DNA of 64,000 bases, taken from Candidatus Uhrbacteria bacterium (GTDB lineage Bacteria; Patescibacteriota; Patescibacteriia; 2-12-FULL-60-25). Every line of letters begins with the position of its first letter. Position 1 is the stretch's first letter. The position numbers were made by a program, and so were the translations under genes. This document shows, piece by piece, positions 6,680-21,126 of the stretch. The notes beneath the pieces were generated by a model. That model saw nothing but the letters and a program-made list of their open reading frames with translations, searched no databases and was not told where the DNA came from. The stretch is from positions 124,001 to 188,000 of the forward strand of contig JACRQE010000005.1 of the NCBI GenBank assembly GCA_016222815.1, given 5' to 3'.

Positions 6680-6708
6680 TTGACAGGAAGACAGCTTTCT
6701 GTTAGTTT
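6680..6708 (+). promoter_or_regulatory. Promoter of SAM-riboswitch operon
   Basis: TTGACA at 6680-6685, a 17-nt spacer, and TAGTTT at 6703-6708. It would start RNA about 12 nt before the riboswitch. Confidence 0.6.
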
Positions 6709-6726
6709 TTAAGTACAACTGAAGAC

Positions 6727-6837
6727 TGACGTATCCAGAGAGTGGAGATGCCAAGGGAACTGACCCGATGCTCCGCCCGCAACCTTCCGAGAGGAAAGGT
6801 GCGAAATTCAGCCCCAATTGGGGAAAGATATCGAGTC
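6727..6837 (+). ncRNA. SAM-I (S-box) riboswitch
   Basis: The conserved S-box elements occur in order: GTATCCAGAGAG at the P1/P2 junction, GGGAACTGACCCGATG (kink-turn and pseudoknot strands), CCCGCAACC, a P3 hairpin (ACCTTCCGAGAGGAAAGGT), GGTGCGAAATTC, a P4 stem CCCC/GGGG, and GAAAGATA closing P1. P1 pairs GTATC with GATAT. The aptamer binds S-adenosylmethionine in known members. Two intrinsic terminators follow before the first gene, consistent with a transcriptional OFF switch. The assignment rests on recognising the consensus, not on a covariance search. Confidence 0.88.
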
Positions 6838-6847
6838 CTGGAGTACG

Positions 6848-6867
6848 TCGCCGATAAGGCGATTTTT
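6848..6867 (+). terminator. Riboswitch expression-platform terminator
   Basis: TCGCC-gataa-GGCGA followed by TTTTT, 11 nt after the aptamer. CTGGAG (6838-6843) can instead pair with CTCCAG (6903-6908), enclosing this hairpin and offering an alternative fold. Confidence 0.65.
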
Positions 6868-6910
6868 CAATACAAAACGCCTTTCTACAGGCGACGAACA
6901 ATCTCCAGAA

Positions 6911-6945
6911 CCCCCGTCTTTCCCTGCGAAGACGGGGTTTTCTGT
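6911..6945 (+). terminator. Second leader terminator
   Basis: CCCCGTCTT / AAGACGGGG with an 8-nt loop, followed by TTTTCTG. It lies upstream of the first gene, so readthrough of two terminators is needed for expression. Confidence 0.75.
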
Positions 6946-7058
6946 CCCAAAGAGGATGGGATGGAGCAGAATTACTGGAGGTCGTTGTAGGTTGATTCGG
7001 TAAGTTCTTCGACAAACTAAGTGAATCAAACTGGAAAAATATCCGGGAGGAGCTACCC

Positions 7059-7325
7059 ATGACAGATAAGAATGATTCCGGGGATATCGTCCTGGACGGA
7101 TCGTTATTCCATGATGAGGAGGAGTTCGAAGACGCTTGCCCTATCATCGAAGAACAATTCCTGCTTTGGGATATCGCAGATTGCCTGGCGGAACACGTCG
7201 GGGATCTGGAAGTCCAGAAATTGACGAGTGATTTCCTGGATCAGCTCGAGGGATTGTGCGACAGATTGGATGACGAAACGGCTGAACGTCTTGGCCGAGA
7301 CGCGACGAATCCTAAGTCTAACTGA
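7059..7325 (+). CDS. Small acidic orphan protein, first gene of S-box operon
   Basis: 88 residues, strongly acidic (Asp/Glu-rich throughout, e.g. FHDEEEFEDA), predicted helical, with no motif I know. The SD GGGAGGAG lies about 6 nt before the ATG. It is the first gene after the SAM-I riboswitch and its terminators. The next gene is 64 nt downstream with its own SD. The role is unknown; the acidic, helical character would suit a small binding or inhibitor protein, but that is speculation. Confidence 0.7.
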   Translation: MTDKNDSGDIVLDGSLFHDEEEFEDACPIIEEQFLLWDIADCLAEHVGDLEVQKLTSDFLDQLEGLCDRLDDETAERLGRDATNPKSN

Positions 7326-7388
7326 ATCTGCATCACCAGAGGTCGTCATGTTGAACTGAAAAATCTCAATCGCTGAAGGAGAAAAACC

Positions 7389-8006
7389 ATGAAGATCGAA
7401 CACAAGACAGTCATCCGCGCGAGGGCGGCGGAACGACGGGCTTCGAGCGAGGTTTTGCCCATCCGCGACGATCTTCTCGCCCGGTTCGAGAAGATCCTGG
7501 ACAGACTTAGCCAGGACAAGGATGCGAGGGAGTCGCAGGCAACGACGATCCGGTTCAAGCTCGAGGATTTGGCCGTCGAAATCAACCGCAGAACGGCGGA
7601 TGATCGTAACGAAAGCCGAATCCTGCGTTTCTTCGTCAGGGCTACAGCCATCGACGGTGCGCCCAAGCACAAACGCCGATTCGAAGTCGAAAGCTTCAAC
7701 CCTAAAGCCCATAAAGCGCATTGGGCGATACTCTGGACGGGCAAGGACTGGAATTGGGAGCAGCTCGAACACCCCTGGGAACGCGACTTGATCGTGTTCG
7801 GCGCATCCTGCTTCGAGAGTGATGATGACGTATCGTTGGCTTTCAGCCTGGCGACCGGAATCAGCCTCCGAAGCTTCAGCCATCCTTTAAGCACAGCCCA
7901 TGCCGAACTGAAAAATGGCAAATGGGACATCACGGTGCACGGATGGCCGACGAATGCCTCGGCCATCCAGGTCTTCCTGGAAAATGAACTCAAGGGATTG
8001 CGATAA
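7389..8006 (+). CDS. Orphan protein, second gene of S-box operon
   Basis: 205 residues. The N-terminal third is basic and helical (RARAAERRASSEVL, RFEKILDRLSQDKDAR). The rest is mixed alpha/beta with many Trp residues (HWAILWTGKDWNWEQL) and a C-terminal segment about STAHAELKNGKWDITVHGWP. SD GAAGGAG, 6 nt before the ATG. It does not match any family I recognise. Spacing of 64 nt upstream and 12 nt downstream indicates one operon with its neighbours. Confidence 0.7.
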   Translation: MKIEHKTVIRARAAERRASSEVLPIRDDLLARFEKILDRLSQDKDARESQATTIRFKLEDLAVEINRRTADDRNESRILRFFVRATAIDGAPKHKRRFEVESFNPKAHKAHWAILWTGKDWNWEQLEHPWERDLIVFGASCFESDDDVSLAFSLATGISLRSFSHPLSTAHAELKNGKWDITVHGWPTNASAIQVFLENELKGLR

Positions 8007-8017
8007 GGAGGTATGTC

Positions 8018-8368
8018 ATGAACGTCAGCCAACAACAGTTGTACTTTGCGGGTATCTTCAACTCACGTCTCGGCTGCAACGGTATCTGCCGCGCCGTGAA
8101 AATCGCCGAGCTGGATGACCTCAAGTTCGGCCTCCTGCAGTCGGCCTTCGCCGAGCTTTGGCCGGATGCCCAGGAACACTCCAGGCTCTTCGTCGTCAAC
8201 GGCAAGTTCGTGGAGCGGGTGCCGTACGAAAGGATCATCCCGGAACTCCTGGATGAGGATTGGACGGAGTGGCGTAAGCTACTGGCCCATCTGACCGAAC
8301 GGGAGTGGCACGATCTCCGACAGGCACTGCGTCTGTTCCGCGAAGCCTGCCGCCAGGCTGCGGCGTAG
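8018..8368 (+). CDS. Small orphan protein, third gene of S-box operon
   Basis: 116 residues, with a very strong SD (AAGGAGG) 5-6 nt before the ATG. Helical, rich in Leu/Glu/Arg, with a Trp-rich middle (LLDEDWTEWRKLLAHL) and a basic C-terminal helix (RQALRLFREACRQAA). No family recognised. It is followed 28 nt later by a strong terminator, so it ends the riboswitch-controlled unit. Confidence 0.7.
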   Translation: MNVSQQQLYFAGIFNSRLGCNGICRAVKIAELDDLKFGLLQSAFAELWPDAQEHSRLFVVNGKFVERVPYERIIPELLDEDWTEWRKLLAHLTEREWHDLRQALRLFREACRQAAA

Positions 8369-15788: not shown

Positions 15789-16544
15789 ATGTCAGATTTC
15801 AAATCACTTTTACGGTCCATCGGACTGAACGAAAGCGAGGTCGAGGTTTATCTTGCGGCGCTTGAAGGCGGGCCGGCGCAGGCCCAGATGTTAGTCAAAA
15901 AGTCAGGGTTTTCGCGGCCGGCGACATACCTGGCGATCGAACAGCTGATGCAGAAAGGGTTGATGAGTTCGGTCAAATTCGGAAAGCGATACCAATACGC
16001 GGCCGAACCGCCGGAACGGTTGGTCAATTACGGTAAATCGCAGGTGAATAATCTTTCGACCAAGGTCGGGGAGATTGAACACGGTTTGGATGATTTGCGG
16101 CTGATGCAGCACGGCGAACGGCCGTCGGTTAAATTTTATGAGGGTGTAGAGGGCCTGAAAGCGATTTTGCAGGATTTGGCTGATTCGAAACCGGAGAGCA
16201 CGCTGGAGATCGCGAACATGGAAGCGGTGCGCGGCGTTTTCACTACCGAGGAGCTCCAGGCGGTGCAGAGGATTTTGGTCAAGATAAAAGCCAAAGGTCG
16301 GGCGTTGCTATCCGGTAAAGTGAATTCCATCCGTCCCGGAGTCGAGGCGCGTTTGTTGCCCAAAGACGAATTTGGTTTTTACGGGGACATCTTGGTTTAT
16401 GGCGACAAGGTCGCCATGGTTTCATTCAAAGGGAAAATGGTGGGCGCGGTCATCGAGAATCCGGTTTTGGCCCAGACCCAGCGCGCATTGTTCGAACTCG
16501 CATGGAGGGGAGCGAGGGAATATCCGGAATTCGGGAAAACGTAG
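15789..16544 (+). CDS. TrmB-like winged-helix transcriptional regulator
   Basis: 251 residues. The N-terminal winged helix (LLRSIGLNESEVEVYLAALE ... SGFSRPATYLAIEQLMQKGL) matches the TrmB family typical of archaea and CPR bacteria. After a linker comes an effector-like C-terminal domain (VKFYEGVEGLKAIL). A TATTAT hexamer at 15777-15782 ends 6 nt before the ATG, suggesting a leaderless message. No obvious target operon is linked. Effector unknown. Confidence 0.85.
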   Translation: MSDFKSLLRSIGLNESEVEVYLAALEGGPAQAQMLVKKSGFSRPATYLAIEQLMQKGLMSSVKFGKRYQYAAEPPERLVNYGKSQVNNLSTKVGEIEHGLDDLRLMQHGERPSVKFYEGVEGLKAILQDLADSKPESTLEIANMEAVRGVFTTEELQAVQRILVKIKAKGRALLSGKVNSIRPGVEARLLPKDEFGFYGDILVYGDKVAMVSFKGKMVGAVIENPVLAQTQRALFELAWRGAREYPEFGKT

Positions 16545-16553
16545 GGACGGGAG

Positions 16554-16579
16554 TTTCCCCGGTCAAGCCGTGGAATGAC
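16554..16579. repeat. Dispersed CCCCGGTCAAGCCGTGG repeat, copy 1
   Basis: TTTCCCCGGTCAAGCCGTGG followed by AATGAC. The same 26-nt element recurs at 33198, 40878 (inverted), 40926, 59570 and 62925. Confidence 0.8.
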
Positions 16580-16604
16580 GGATTTTACAGATAAACAACC
16601 AGAA

Positions 16605-16640
16605 CGACAAAGCCCACCGTTGAACGACAGGTGGGCGTTT
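16605..16640. terminator. Terminator, probably of the minus-strand small RNA
   Basis: GCCCACC / GGTGGGC hairpin with an 11-nt loop. On the minus strand it is followed by TTTGTCG, and on the plus strand by GTTTTGTC. It could serve both the TrmB gene and the leftward RNA. Confidence 0.7.
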
Positions 16641-16873
16641 TGTCTCAGCTTCCGCTTCCCATGGCTCCTCCTCTTGTTGGCGACTCGTTTGTTTTCGGTG
16701 TCCTCAATCCTTGAGAAATGCCGATCGAACGAGTGACTGCTGACTAGCCGCCTAAAGAGGTTGTGCTTGGTTATGGGTAGAGGCTGAGATGCGAGAGGTG
16801 GGTGGAAGTAGCATGTAAGCTGGTTTTTTCGCTTAATACAGCGGAGCTGTTTCGGCGATTTCACCAACTTACA
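16605..16873 (-). ncRNA. Candidate structured small RNA (~265 nt), divergent from the giant-RNA locus
   Basis: A perfectly spaced minus-strand promoter (16880-16908) and a terminator at 16605-16640 delimit a unit without a credible ORF. The predicted 5' end opens with GTAAGTTGG pairing to CCAGCTTAC (plus-strand 16863-16871 with 16815-16823), enclosing an ACAGC-tcc-GCTGT hairpin. Further on, ACTCGTT (16728-16734) pairs with AACGAGT (16684-16690) around CTCAA-gga-TTGAG. An AAGAGGAGGAGCC-ATG near the 3' end opens only a five-codon frame. The position beside a TROVE gene makes a Y-RNA-like role worth testing, but no Y-RNA consensus was recognised. Confidence 0.55.
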
Positions 16874-16879
16874 AAATTT

Positions 16880-16908
16880 AATATAGCACGTATTTTGACT
16901 TTTGTCAA
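16880..16908 (-). promoter_or_regulatory. Promoter of minus-strand small RNA
   Basis: On the minus strand, TTGACA (16903-16908), a 17-nt spacer, and TATATT (16880-16885), in an AT-rich tract. Confidence 0.7.
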
Positions 16909-17028
16909 GGGGTAGAGTGACAAAAATAGTAGATAAATATTATAAAAATAAGTAGAAGTATAATATATAAATAAATATCTAAAATTAGATAAAAATCTCG
17001 CTATTTAAAATAAAGTGGAATGAGGGAC
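16909..17028. other. AT-rich intergenic island between divergent promoters
   Basis: About 120 bp composed almost wholly of A/T runs (e.g. AGTATAATATATAAATAAAT), in sharp contrast to the GC-rich neighbourhood. No ORF. Its A-tracts just upstream of both -35 boxes could act as UP elements for strong RNA synthesis; this is inference. Confidence 0.6.
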
Positions 17029-17057
17029 TTGACAAATATTTTGAACTGTGTTAGATT
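17029..17057 (+). promoter_or_regulatory. Promoter of the giant-RNA/TROVE locus
   Basis: TTGACA at 17029-17034, a 17-nt spacer, and TAGATT at 17052-17057. It is the only clear plus-strand promoter before the two RNA copies and the TROVE gene. Confidence 0.75.
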
Positions 17058-17121
17058 GTTCGTGTTGAACAGTGAAAAGCAAGCGGCGAACATTAAAATC
17101 AGAGTTCTAGAGACTTTAGGA

Positions 17122-18335
17122 GGCCAGGCATCTCGTCCCGAAAGCCGTCAGCCGCACGGCTAGCGAGATGAGGTGCTTGGCAGTGTAGATTGGGGATACT
17201 TCGAACCATCAAGGCGATAAACGACTTCTGGCTATGCTTTCGGGCTGGTCGGATGACAATGTCTCCAGTCGTATCTTCTCCAAGCGTCTCAAGTGCTGTC
17301 AGGGCGGTGTGGGTGAACGGATACTTCGAACCATACAACGCCAAAAATGGGGTGGTCGCCGGTGTCCATCGGATGTCCCTCGGATATCCGGTGATGATGC
17401 CGTCGGCCAAATGCTATCCAGCCTCCGTATGGGGTGTGGGTGGGACAAGGGATTCAAGCCAGGGCCGCGAAAATGGTTCCTGGCGCCCAAGTCGAATGCA
17501 GGAGCGAAAGCTCCAGCTCCAAGTAGTTCGAAAGGACTGTGAGGAGGCTGAGGGAGTACGGTCCCGAAGCAAGAGCCGTCACCGGTTCTTCCCCCTGACA
17601 GCACGTTGGCGGATGTGCGGGATCGAGGCCCTGCATATCCAACGGAGTCTGGCTTGCACGTCGCTAAGCCATGCTTCGTGAGGTGGATACACCTCAAGGG
17701 CACTCAAGAGCGATCGTCGGCCCGTAGATGGGTCCGCGACGCTCTGAAGGCGCCTGAACCTCGGATGCGGCTGATGAGGCTGGCAATCGGGGACCGGACG
17801 TGAGCGTCGCGAACTCACAACCGGAAGGACTTCGCCAATGCGACAAAAAAAGCGCAGGGGTATTCGTGTCACTCCGTGGCACATTGAGTCAGGCGATCCT
17901 GACACCCCTGTGCGACCTCGCTCCCGGTAATAAGGAGCTGGCGGTCTGCCCGCCACGAAGCCGCTACTCAAACGAGGATCGAGCAGCAGTACGCAGAGGC
18001 GCAACGACAAGCCTCGGCGTCGGACCAAGGAGTCCGTTTGACCTCAATCTCCTCGTCAGAGCCCGAAAGCGGGTGGAAACGATGGAGTGGGGGAAAGCAC
18101 CAGCATGGAGCGGTCTGCCAATCGGCAAGAGCACCATGCCTGGGCGCGGTCCGATGTCTCCGGAGCATCGGCGCGCACAGCCCAACGGGAGTAAAACCGT
18201 TTGGGAAGGGTCTGACTGGGAGATTTTCCCGGGACCCATCGTACTCACTCGACGCGGATGAGTGGTTCACTCCATTCTCCGCGCCTCCTCTCCCGCGACT
18301 GACTCGGGGTCGGTAACGGAAGAGGAGAGAGAGTC
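17122..18335 (+). ncRNA. Giant structured RNA, copy A (~1.2 kb)
   Basis: No coding signal: all frames are short and mutually overlapping. The 5' end folds as CCAGGCATCTCG / CGAGATGAGGTGCTTGG around AGCCGT/ACGGCT. Shared with copy B are a 22-nt block at 17185-17206, a 39-nt identical block at 17293-17331, a GNRA hairpin GGAGC-GAAA-GCTCC at 17501-17514, a 25-nt identical block at 17571-17595, a CCGGAAGG...TTCGCCAATGCGAC block at 17821-17844, and two terminal hairpins at 18250-18331. A 12-bp perfect long-range helix joins 17293-17304 with 17593-17604. GGATACTTCGAAC occurs twice (17194, 17319). It carries an extra domain of about 400 nt relative to copy B. Family not recognised. Confidence 0.75.
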
Positions 18336-19116
18336 GGGTCCCTGATCCAACCTTGTCGCAAGAGCCACGTCCTCTACGGAGGGCCTGGACAGCGGCGGGG
18401 TGAAACGAGGGACTCGGCAGCGTAGATTGGGGATACTTCGAACATCAATCAAGACAAGCGACGTTCGGCAAAACCCTTCGGGGCAGAGTCGGATGAAAAT
18501 GTCTCCAATCGTTACTTCTCCGAGCTCTTCGAAAATGTGCTGTCAGGGCGGTGTGGGTGAACGGATACTTCGAACATCCAAATCGCGGTCAGCAATGTCT
18601 TCGGACAATGTTGGCCAAAACCATCAAGTCTCCGTAAGAGGCAGGGTGGGGCATCTGAAGCGAGGGTCGCGATTAGCGGCTACAGCGCCTGATGTCGACT
18701 GAATGGAGCGAGAGCTCCGGCTCCGGGCGGTCTGAAAGGATCGTCTGGAGGATCTCGGGGTACGGCCCGGATCAAGAGCCGTCACCGGTTCTTCCCCCCA
18801 GTAGCGCACATACCTATGGACGGGATGCATTGCGCACCTGTTCCAGCGGAGCAAGGCTGTGACGTCGCGTCAGCCAGGCTTCGCGGGTGGAGGTAAACCC
18901 GAAAGGACATGCCCAGTGCCCGGCTTCGTGCCGTGAAGACTCGGGATGTCTTAAACCCTGGAGACTGAACTAGTTACAGGGACCGACCGTTGAGCCTCGC
19001 GAACTCACGGCCGGAAGGATTCGCCAATGCGACAGCTTGCGCGGGTGAGTGGTTCACTCCATTCCCCGCGCCTCGTCTCTCGGTCCTGACATGAAGTCGG
19101 GGACGGAAGAGGAGAT
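18336..19116 (+). ncRNA. Giant structured RNA, copy B (~0.75 kb)
   Basis: Diverged tandem copy of the upstream RNA. The 5' stem is GTCCCT / AGGGAC. Conserved blocks are at 18422-18443, 18537-18575 (39/39 identical to copy A), the hairpin about GGAGCGAGAGCTCC at 18705-18718, 18774-18798 (25/25 identical), about 18996-19033 (CTCACGGCCGGAAGG...GCGACA), and the hairpins GCGCGGG/CCCCGCGC with GAGTG-gtt-CACTC inside at 19038-19070. Intervening segments differ in sequence and length. The long-range helix is kept as TGTGC (18536-18540) with GCACA (18806-18810) plus GGG/CCC. Motif GGATACTTCGAAC is at 18431 and 18563. It lies directly upstream of the TROVE gene, same strand. Confidence 0.75.
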
Positions 19117-19187
19117 TCCGCACGAAACGCGAAACTGATTAACGAATCGGCTGGTTTAGTGCGGCTCCGGTACTTTCGAAAAACAAC

Positions 19188-19210
19188 CCCTCCGGTGTGA
19201 CACCGGAGCC
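19188..19210 (+). other. Strong hairpin in the TROVE leader
   Basis: CTCCGGTG-tga-CACCGGAG, without a following U-run. It lies 38 nt before the TROVE start, and may be an RNA 3' boundary, a processing signal or a translational control element. Confidence 0.55.
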
Positions 19211-19247
19211 CTTCTCCCCAGGGTATGGGGCAGCGTTGAGGTTGATC

Positions 19248-20987
19248 ATGGCTAAGGCGAATACGGTTCTCTCCATCTCCGAGCAGCTCTCTTCCCGCAT
19301 CGACGCGACTACGAACCACGAGGGTGGTCTCGCGTTCGCGCTCGACGCGCGGTCGCGCCTGTACACGCGTGCGGTGGCGAGCTTGATCCGCGAGGACAAG
19401 TTCTATACCAGCGCGGAACAGTGCGATGCGGAGCTCGTGGCCGACATCCAGGCCGTGGCCGAAGTGGATCCGGAGTTCGTGCTCCGGCTGGCGGCTTTCA
19501 CGCGCCAGGTGATGAACATCCGTTCGACTCCGGTCGCGATGCTGGTCCAGGCTGCGGCCATCCCGGCTTGCAAACCGTTCGTGCGGCGTTGGACGCCGGC
19601 CATCGTACAGCGGGTGGACGAGATCACGGAAGTCATCGCTTACTGGACCATCTGCCATGGCGCAATCGGCTCGGCCGGCGCCAAGGGCGGAGAACACGCG
19701 TTCCCGAACAGCCTGACACGCGGTCTGCAAGACGCGCTGGGGCAGTTCGATGAGTATCAGTTTGCGAAGTACGACCGTGAAGGTCGCGTCACCCTGCGCG
19801 ATGCCCTGCGCATCCTGCGGCCCACGCCGGTTGGCGAGGCACAGTCGGCCTTGTTCCGGTATCTCGTGAAGGGGACTGTGGATGCCGAGCATCTGCCCAA
19901 GCTCGCGGCTAAGGCCGTCCTCCTCCGCAAGGAGACGCTGGACGCCGAAGCGCTGGAGCTGGCCGATACCGCCCACGTGACCCACGAGGTGCTGACGAGC
20001 AAGTTCGGCTCGAACGCCGAGACGTGGAATGCCATCCGCTTCCTGCCGTTCATGGCCGGGCTGCGCAACCTCTCGAACATCATGCGGACGGGCGCTGACA
20101 CCGCCCTGGACCGCGTGCTGTCGATGTTCCGCAATCCGGAGCATGTGCGGCGGTCGAGGCAGCTGCCATTCCGCTTCTTCAGTGCGGCGCGCATCATCGA
20201 ATCGGGTCTGCGCTATGACAGGCGGACCGAATCCCTGGTGCACGACGAGCGGATCGCGGCTCACCCGCGGCGCAACGAGGTATTGGAGGCTCTCCAGACG
20301 GCTGTCGAGTTGTCGCTCGTGAACGTGCCGCGCCTGTCCGGGCGGACGTTCATCACGGCGGACAATTCCGGCTCGATGGCGACGCCCCTCTCGGAGCGCT
20401 CGACGGTGACGCTGCGTGAAGTCGCCAACCTGATGGCGGCCTTGGGCCACGCGTTGTGCGAGGATCCGATCGTGTCGGTGTTCGGCTCGAACCATGCCGT
20501 CGTTCCCGTGTCCCGCAAGGATACGGTGCTGACGAACATGGCCAAGCTGGGCGCGACGCCGGTCGGTGGTGCAACCAATGCGTTCCTCACGGTGCGCTAT
20601 CTGCGCGAGAACAGAATTCGGGTCGACCGGATCGTACTGTTCTCGGACATGCAGTGCTACGACTCGACGGGTCGGCGCTCCACCGGCTACGGCTGGGGAG
20701 AACCCGATGGTTCGCTTGCCGAGGAATTGCGAAAGTACCGCAGCAGCGTGAATCCGGAGGTCTTCATGCACTCCGTCGATCTCGCTGGCCACGGTACGTC
20801 GCAATTCCCGCAGGACGAACGCCGGGTGGCGCTCCTGGCCGGTTGGTCCGAGAGACTGCTTGAGGCCCTGCCGTTGTTCGAGGCAGGAGGTACTCAAGCG
20901 GTCGATCGGATCTCCGGTTGGCAGCCCCGCGTCCAGCGTCGTGAGATGCAGGACCAGGCCGAAGTCGTGACCGAGGTGTCGGAGTAG
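19248..20987 (+). CDS. TROVE-vWA protein (bacterial Ro60 homologue)
   Basis: 579 residues. About residues 15-340 form the TROVE HEAT-like ring (RSRLYTRAVASLIRED, FTRQVMNIRSTPVAML, WNAIRFLPFMAGLRNLSNI). About 360-560 form a von Willebrand A domain with a complete MIDAS: DNSGSMA (D372, S374, S376), the Thr of GATPVGGATN, and FSDMQ. Ro60-type rings bind Y RNAs and misfolded RNA 3' ends in bacteria and animals. The start is the ATG at 19248 with a weak GAGG site; the upstream in-frame ATG-less extension is rejected. It follows two giant structured RNAs on the same strand, with no terminator having a U-tract in between, suggesting the RNAs are its partners or long leader. Confidence 0.92.
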   Translation: MAKANTVLSISEQLSSRIDATTNHEGGLAFALDARSRLYTRAVASLIREDKFYTSAEQCDAELVADIQAVAEVDPEFVLRLAAFTRQVMNIRSTPVAMLVQAAAIPACKPFVRRWTPAIVQRVDEITEVIAYWTICHGAIGSAGAKGGEHAFPNSLTRGLQDALGQFDEYQFAKYDREGRVTLRDALRILRPTPVGEAQSALFRYLVKGTVDAEHLPKLAAKAVLLRKETLDAEALELADTAHVTHEVLTSKFGSNAETWNAIRFLPFMAGLRNLSNIMRTGADTALDRVLSMFRNPEHVRRSRQLPFRFFSAARIIESGLRYDRRTESLVHDERIAAHPRRNEVLEALQTAVELSLVNVPRLSGRTFITADNSGSMATPLSERSTVTLREVANLMAALGHALCEDPIVSVFGSNHAVVPVSRKDTVLTNMAKLGATPVGGATNAFLTVRYLRENRIRVDRIVLFSDMQCYDSTGRRSTGYGWGEPDGSLAEELRKYRSSVNPEVFMHSVDLAGHGTSQFPQDERRVALLAGWSERLLEALPLFEAGGTQAVDRISGWQPRVQRREMQDQAEVVTEVSE

Positions 20988-20999
20988 TACGTCGATCCG

Positions 21000-21048
21000 A
21001 CGGACGGCGAGAAGGTTCCCCGCAAGGGTCGAATCGCTCGCCGTCCGT
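21000..21048 (+). ncRNA. Long perfect hairpin in TROVE 3' region
   Basis: ACGGACGGCGAG (21000-21011) pairs perfectly with CTCGCCGTCCGT (21037-21048). The interior continues as GGTTC/GAATC and CCC/GGG capped by a GCAA tetraloop with a TC bulge. It starts 13 nt after the TROVE stop and precedes the terminator. It could be a small RNA ligand module or a 3'-UTR stabiliser. Confidence 0.5.
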
Positions 21049-21088
21049 AGGGGTCCGTTCCTTCGATACAGGTCGCATGTCACACTAT

Positions 21089-21126
21089 CTCAAACAGCGG
21101 TTTAGCACCCCGCTGTTTTTCTTTTT
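21089..21126 (+). terminator. Terminator of the giant-RNA/TROVE locus
   Basis: AAACAGCGG / CCGCTGTTT followed by TTCTTTTTC. Confidence 0.85.

Follow-up and report, generated by a model that had tools for sequence, protein, structure and literature searches.

Two predicted giant RNA units with Y-RNA-type modules precede a Ro60-type TROVE gene in a Candidatus Uhrbacteria genome and may share one operon with it

The 64,000-nucleotide stretch of contig JACRQE010000005.1 that we analyzed here (hereafter, the window) belongs to a Candidatus Uhrbacteria genome of 1.30 Mb in 8 contigs (G000) and carries, at positions 17029 to 21126, a promoter-like site, a gene-free stretch of 2.2 kb and then a gene encoding a TROVE-vWA protein related to Ro60 and Rsr (Table 1). 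The gene-free stretch holds two predicted giant RNA units, A and B, each of which contains a module of the type found in Y RNAs, the RNA partners of Ro60 proteins. We consider it probable, judging from the comparisons described below, that the region is one Ro60 ribonucleoprotein (RoRNP) operon, in which two giant RNAs with Y-RNA-type docking modules are followed by their Ro60-type protein.

An earlier reading made from the letters of the window only (the sequence-only reading) had described about 2 kb without coding signal between a promoter and the TROVE-vWA gene, and this description held in our analyses. A codon-model gene caller proposed no gene in the 2.7 kb between the TrmB-type regulator gene and the TROVE gene (16545-19247). 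An earlier and cruder codon model proposed one 62-aa open reading frame (ORF) there, at 17454-17642 on the reverse strand, and the best Pfam match among the 8 ORFs of at least 100 aa inside the RNA region, to an unrelated family, had an E value of 0.027. The idea that A or B conceal protein genes was then rejected, since the second codon model gave none and no Pfam match was credible. Scanning for forward promoters that match at least 10 of 12 positions returned a single site ahead of both RNAs and TROVE.

Units A and B are diverged copies of one sequence, as the sequence-only reading had proposed for somewhat different sizes than those given here: seven families of direct repeats follow each other in the same order in both units. 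These comprise the 39-nt block already noticed as identical (100%, 17293/18537), a 76-nt repeat (83%, 18253/19040) and repeats of 42 nt (86%), 38 nt (87%), 33 nt (94%), 29 nt (90%) and 15 nt (100%); the sequence CAAGAGCCGTCACCGGTTCTTC occurs twice, against 0.00 occurrences expected. The 12-bp long-range helix described before is also there, exact in A (17293-17304 with 17593-17604) and retained in a reduced form with G-U pairs in B, and the fold of copy B as a whole reaches a z-score of -7.3 against 20 shuffles. Over the whole A/B core, predicted pairs that had changed were retained beyond what was obtained with redrawn substitutions (P <0.001 to 0.02), and retention was not in excess in the coding sequence of TROVE that served as a control (P 0.105-0.955).

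Three sub-domains are structurally better supported than the core as a whole. The terminal double hairpin that closes each unit folds with z-scores of -4.0 to -6.2 in six copies, and its second hairpin, from which we built the covariance model R1, shows compensatory double changes in 4 of 16 pairs among seven copies (0 to 2 in controls with slid structures). The internal hairpin R4 shows such changes in 5 of 12 pairs among five copies picked by eye (slid controls, 0). The third sub-domain is the Y-RNA-type module, modeled as R2, with double changes in 4 of 19 pairs among only three copies and none in six slid controls.

Table 1. Features of the RNA-TROVE locus and its immediate surroundings in the window
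Feature	Positions	Strand	Remarks
TrmB-type regulator gene	15789..16544	+	PF01978, E 1.1e-12; 5' neighbor of the locus
Short divergent transcript (predicted)	16613..16908	-	Promoter-like site, mini-ORF and terminator-like hairpin in sequence
Promoter-like site of the putative RNA-TROVE unit	17029..17057	+	TTGACA-17-TAGATT, 10/12 positions, TG in front
Giant RNA unit A	~17064..18334	+	1.27 kb; predicted ends
Y-RNA-type module of unit A	17165..17295	+	131 nt; signature GTAG-N6-GA-TACTTCG at 17185-17203
Sub-domain closed by the 12-bp helix	17293..17604	+	Also holds a second, diverged GGATACTTCGAAC at 17319-17331
Internal hairpin R4 of A	17634..17701	+	Common to TROVE-less relatives
A-specific region	17847..18252	+	Mostly absent from B; main source of the greater length of A
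Terminal double hairpin of A	18253..18328	+	Second hairpin is model R1; repeat, fold, covariation
Giant RNA unit B	~18335..19122	+	0.79 kb; predicted ends; fold z -7.3
Y-RNA-type module of unit B	18402..18535	+	134 nt; signature at 18422-18440
Second, diverged module of unit B	18546..18798	+	Weak, R3 E 0.59
Internal hairpin R4 of B	18838..18904	+	Covariation
Terminal double hairpin of B	19040..19115	+	Repeat, fold, covariation
TROVE-vWA (Ro60/Rsr-like) gene	19248..20987	+	579 aa; PF05731; DNSGS (DxSxS) motif
Terminator-like hairpin	21092..21118 (approx.)	+	AAACAGCGG..CCGCTGTTT, then a T-rich tail; seen by eye, absent from the terminator scan list

The module, which makes up about 10% of A and 17% of B, consists of an outer helix, an internal loop (CAGyGUAG / (U)AUCUUCU), an inner helix and a GAUACUUCGAA turn. 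R2 was built from the copies of window A, window B and one related genome only (G034, L009 5473-5371). When it was first searched against 37 loci, including four viral loci with TROVE, the best matches besides the source copies adjoined TROVE in two of these four viral loci (twice in L110 and once in L108). We then gathered 80 viral TROVE loci by their protein, L108 and L110 among them, and ran R2 on 76 (L111, L125, L170 and L171 were left out, their listing rows repeating another locus). This gave 51 matches at E ≤ 1 in 36 of the 76 loci, the best at 9.7e-8, of which three (in L110 and L108) were already known from the first search; two of the positive loci (L147 and L148) look like near-copies. 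All 51 matches lie on the strand of TROVE and at most 1 kb from it, 42 upstream and 9 downstream.

The same association appeared when the signature was simply counted. GTAG-N6-G[AT]-TACTTCG was found within 2.5 kb of TROVE on the TROVE strand in 23 of the 80 loci, compared to none on the opposite strand and 0.00 in shuffles, and its core G.TACTTCG in 58 of the 80 loci, compared to 2 on the opposite strand and 1.8 in shuffles. Among 93 control loci, from which 19 loci with TROVE or with the window locus of G000, G034 or G009 (or repeats of these) had been removed by name beforehand, the strict signature occurred in seven, each of which was another copy of the locus seen in the window. An alignment of 33 modules from 25 sources showed double changes in 16 of 19 pairs and in 173 cells, against 49 in shuffles and 20-35 with slid structures; as the modules were aligned by fitting them to the model, the result leans towards the model structure. 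Rfam 15 reported no Y-like RNA in the four viral loci that were scanned with it (L108, L109, L110 and L112).

Retraining on the 33 aligned modules gave a further model, R3, which extended these findings to named replicons. On a Deinococcus gobiensis plasmid, it placed a module with a tRNA-like insert 28 nt ahead of TROVE (E 7.8e-9), and it found four modules in Arthrobacter phage Atuin, one in crAss001 and one in Thermus phage phiLo; all seven matches share the strand of TROVE and lie no more than 0.6 kb away from it. Reading the diverged second module of unit B as a full Y module was considered and dropped, as R3 scored it weakly (E 0.59); R2 gave an E value of 3.7 for the second module present in the window.

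In L110, a viral contig of 186 kb, a tandem array of about eight Y-like RNAs was seen by eye 3' of TROVE (6690-8100). These RNAs are ~75-160 nt long, each is closed by an outer helix and has the signature, and several hold a permuted tRNA-like insert with the T-arm first and the D-arm second; in L108, two Y-like RNAs lie upstream of TROVE and one has such an insert (all by eye). Two publications describe bacterial YrlA-type Y RNAs as molecules of 90-150 nt made of an Rsr-binding basal stem and a tRNA-like effector (PMC8394870, PMC4726728), and the layout of the L110 and L108 RNAs matches that description. R2 and R3 also supply a signature for Y-like RNAs that adjoin viral TROVE genes.

The giant RNA was then followed through the order to which the genome belongs, using a sample of 41 genomes that includes G000 and a member of its genus (G003). 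Only three of them encode TROVE: G000, G034 and, in a diverged form, G009. R2 matched at E ≤ 0.001 in G000 (twice) and G034 (once) only, both with TROVE, and R1 at the same threshold in seven genomes, namely G000, G001 and G003 (two matches each), G034 (three, plus one extra echo on the reverse strand), G011, G032 and, weakly, G026. In G001, G003, G034, G032 and G026, a TrmB-type gene and a TTGACA promoter precede the R1 matches; the 11 kb retrieved at the G011 match yielded no TrmB match. The genes that follow the RNA differ from one genome to another: TROVE in the window and in G034, a small YDPGxYxCPWSK protein in G001 and G003, and, in G032, a DUF6847 protein (E 2.4e-7) along with others. 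R4 was found in TROVE-less loci of G001 and G032, and R1 in those of G001, G032 and G003. Since these RNA domains also adjoin genes other than TROVE, the large RNA in itself does not depend on TROVE being its neighbor.

At the DNA level, a search with the whole RNA gave matches in three of the 41 genomes. One was the window's own genome; G003 matched over 72 bases and G026 over 36 bases, the latter match being judged a product of chance. Among the best 15 candidates per genome in 379 genomes of the phylum, R1 matched only G000 and G011 at E ≤ 0.001. The R1 pattern was found in four GTDB contigs, three of which correspond to G003, G034 and G001; the fourth (L107, Rikenellaceae) matches a degenerate form of the pattern and may be a chance hit. 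Viral contigs contained neither the R1 pattern nor the exact 28-mer, and 57 viral, phage and plasmid TROVE loci gave no R1 match at E ≤ 0.1. A resemblance of the whole RNA to phage DNA was also considered and dropped, as no similarity was found.

The protein encoded downstream of the RNAs has a clear TROVE domain (PF05731, E 3.8e-32, 112.5 bits for a cut-off of 23) and matches the TROVE chains 9l5y and 9kop of the PDB (E 2.7e-21), and its candidate vWA_Ro60 domain (PF25045, E 3.4e-6) scores 27.5 bits, just below the cut-off of 27.7. It contains a DNSGS (DxSxS) motif that may be the metal site of the vWA domain; D372, S374, G375 and S376 are invariant among seven TROVE proteins. With 48.6 bits for a curated cut-off of 900 in the Rsr equivalog model NF041674, the protein is best classed as a TROVE-vWA relative of Rsr and not as an Rsr equivalog. 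In a midpoint-rooted FastTree tree of 54 TROVE proteins, those of G034 and the window cluster with their viral counterparts from L110 (0.95) and L108 (0.94). This grouping suggests that TROVE and the module may have arrived together, from a phage-like source, in an already existing giant-RNA locus.

The window RNAs appear to be best read as a giant RNA platform, specific to the lineage and apparently co-transcribed with Ro60, into which docking modules for Ro60 of the Y-RNA type are built. The sequence-only reading had proposed that the RNAs are partners of the TROVE ring, and this part of it is supported computationally and remains the best reading because the module tracks TROVE in viral contigs, being beside it and on the same strand in every match; but the signal is confined to the 131-134 nt of the module, and other domains also exist without TROVE. 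For the same reason, namely that the partner signal sits in a Y-RNA-type module, the locus looks like a variant of the known pairing of Ro60 with Y RNAs, and not like the wholly new RNA-protein system that had been suggested.

In such an operon, both RNAs and TROVE would be transcribed as one unit, and the TROVE ring would bind the module in the way that Ro60 and Rsr bind Y RNAs, through the basal stem. The remaining 0.65-1.1 kb of each unit would then stand where a normal Y RNA has its short effector end, and may serve as a large, structured scaffold or as a gate selecting what the ring takes on. The 3' ends of the units may be marked by the terminal double hairpins, where the units would be cut from, or protected from, the TROVE mRNA to give separate stable RNAs. 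If the module binds TROVE as we infer, the window units would thus function like Y RNAs.

Several results weigh against this interpretation. At E ≤ 1, 40 of the 76 viral TROVE loci had no R2 match, and six of 10 named TROVE loci had no R3 match at E ≤ 5; the strict signature was absent from all 10 named loci and its core present in only one. G009, the third genome of the order with TROVE, had no R3 match at its locus and no R2 match genome-wide. Conversely, R2 matched weakly (E 0.044) in a locus without TROVE (L079), and a strong R3 match was found in a phylum genome in which no TROVE was found (G155): among the 379 genomes, TROVE was found in one (G000) and R3, among the best 10 candidates per genome, in two (G000 and G155). 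Compensatory double changes were not in excess over the A/B core (P 0.07-0.33) and reached P values of 0.004 and 0.014 in one direction in the TROVE coding control, and because this control was also significant, the whole-core covariation test is modest at best. Finally, no T-arm pattern with up to one mismatch was found in 17064-19140, and the effector of YrlA is therefore absent from the window RNAs. The G155 match itself (L202:1918-2036, reverse strand, 56.9 bits) lies on a contig with a start resembling transfer-messenger RNA (tmRNA), as seen by eye, in a genome that is 88% complete.

Other explanations would account for part of these data. Since the module alone has the size of an ordinary Y RNA and short ones stand in tandem in the viral contig L110, conventional Y RNAs of ~130 nt might be excised from a long precursor, and all other parts of A and B would be processed spacer. 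We regard this as unlikely, for conserved blocks and covarying hairpins lie outside the module (R4 and R1), copy B is strongly folded over its whole length and the 12-bp long-range helix is retained. It is also rather improbable that the TROVE mRNA retains the modules and hairpins as an autoregulatory leader, bound by TROVE to control its own expression: the single forward promoter ahead of both RNAs and TROVE would fit, as would the terminal hairpin of G003, which extends over the ribosome site of the following ORF (by eye), but nine of the 51 viral modules lie downstream of TROVE, the tandem units are far longer than a usual leader and the last double hairpin of the window ends 132 nt ahead of the TROVE start. 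Very little speaks for a giant RNA that works without TROVE, for instance as an oligomeric RNA of the GOLLD/ROOL kind with TROVE as a passenger gene, since the TROVE-less loci with R1 and R4 and their variable cargo genes are outweighed by a TROVE-tracking module that both copies and G034 contain and that R3 (E ≤ 5) did not detect in any of the 15 loci of the order without TROVE on which it was run.

Setting the RoRNP operon of the window beside its sister loci, one may tentatively, though this is rather doubtful, view the TrmB-linked loci of the order as sharing a giant-RNA platform whose protein-docking modules can be exchanged, each RNA module along with its protein partner. With TROVE as cargo, the RNA would have gained Y-type Ro60 modules, probably from a phage TROVE locus; with another cargo protein, the same frame would hold other modules. 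The TROVE-less sister loci suggest a giant-RNA family of ultra-small bacteria in which a large RNA gained a protein-docking domain.

TrmB-type homologues are present in 38 of the 41 genomes of the order, with up to 11 genes per genome, and a TTGACA-type match lies within 2.5 kb downstream of the TrmB gene in 34 of the 47 loci examined. Several of these loci (L058-L097 and the window) have long gene-free leaders and variable cargo genes. The 12-mer ACCTTACAATCA, after the promoter, is common to four loci (L009, L026, L076 and L078), as is the 12-mer TGCTTGTCCGGA (L065, L068, L076 and L081); in 10 shuffled sets, no 12-mer was shared by more than three loci. A common fold for the leaders of G028 and G035, which are 69% identical, was unsupported except by one control in one direction. 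Two tmRNA genes were found within about 7 kb of a TrmB-type gene (L010:758-1184 in G009 and L065:5225-5573 in G028).

Next to the TrmB-type gene of the window, scans found a divergent promoter-like site on the reverse strand (16908-16880, 11 of 12 positions, with TG) and a terminator-like hairpin (16631-16613) that closes the predicted divergent transcript. Between them lies a mini-ORF of five codons with a strong ribosome site, ATGGGAAGCGGAAGCTGA (MGSGS*, 16662-16645, reverse strand), and MGSG[SRGQ]* mini-ORFs were seen in seven of 17 loci examined; it may be a micropeptide, a drop-off minigene or a small RNA. Elsewhere in the window, a SAM riboswitch at 6728-6834 scores 44.7 bits, barely above its gathering score of 44.4.

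How do these RNAs compare with known classes? Rfam 15 gave no match at gathering score over the RNA region, in line with the earlier statement that GOLLD, ROOL, OLE or any intron class could not be recognized, and at E ≤ 10 it gave three matches, the best with an E value of 0.25, all far below their own gathering scores; neither ARAGORN nor Rfam found a tRNA there. Membership of GOLLD, ROOL or OLE was rejected, as no covariance model matched at gathering score or with any weight at E ≤ 10. The window RNAs resemble these giant ornate RNAs in being large, gene-free, multi-domain structured bacterial RNAs, but they have no Rfam match. Assembly into RNA-only homo-oligomers is a feature of those classes (PMC12286853). 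Our literature search found no work joining Uhrbacteria and noncoding RNA, which is weak evidence of novelty as most subscription papers lie outside such a search, and publications pairing "Y RNA" with Patescibacteria were, by title, on other subjects.

The closest known system is that of YrlA-type Y RNAs with Rsr or Ro60. As in that system, the window module adjoins a TROVE-vWA gene on the same strand, and it has a two-helix basal stem, supported by covariation, that R2 and R3 also find beside the TROVE genes of viruses, phages and D. gobiensis; this comparison is with RNAs adjoining TROVE and not with a curated Y RNA model. PMC8394870 gives YrlA-type RNAs a length of 90-150 nt and a tRNA-like effector, whereas the window units measure 1.27 and 0.79 kb between predicted ends, lack a T-arm and carry lineage-specific domains, only the module alone being of Y RNA size. 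Because of their length and the missing tRNA-like effector, we did not file the window units as canonical Y RNAs. Ro60 rings are known with short Y RNAs, and giant RNAs on such a ring raise a further question; since the docking module can be recognized by its sequence and covariation, whether it is a partner of TROVE can be directly tested in vitro with defined fragments. In Salmonella, the rsr-yrlBA-rtcBA operon joins a Ro60 protein and its Y RNAs, as described in PMC7790460. The window differs in that its RNAs are giant and precede TROVE and that its upstream neighbor is of the TrmB type, with no RtcB or RtcA among the seven neighboring window proteins scanned, but it would share with the Salmonella locus the union of a Ro60 protein and its Y-type RNAs in one operon.

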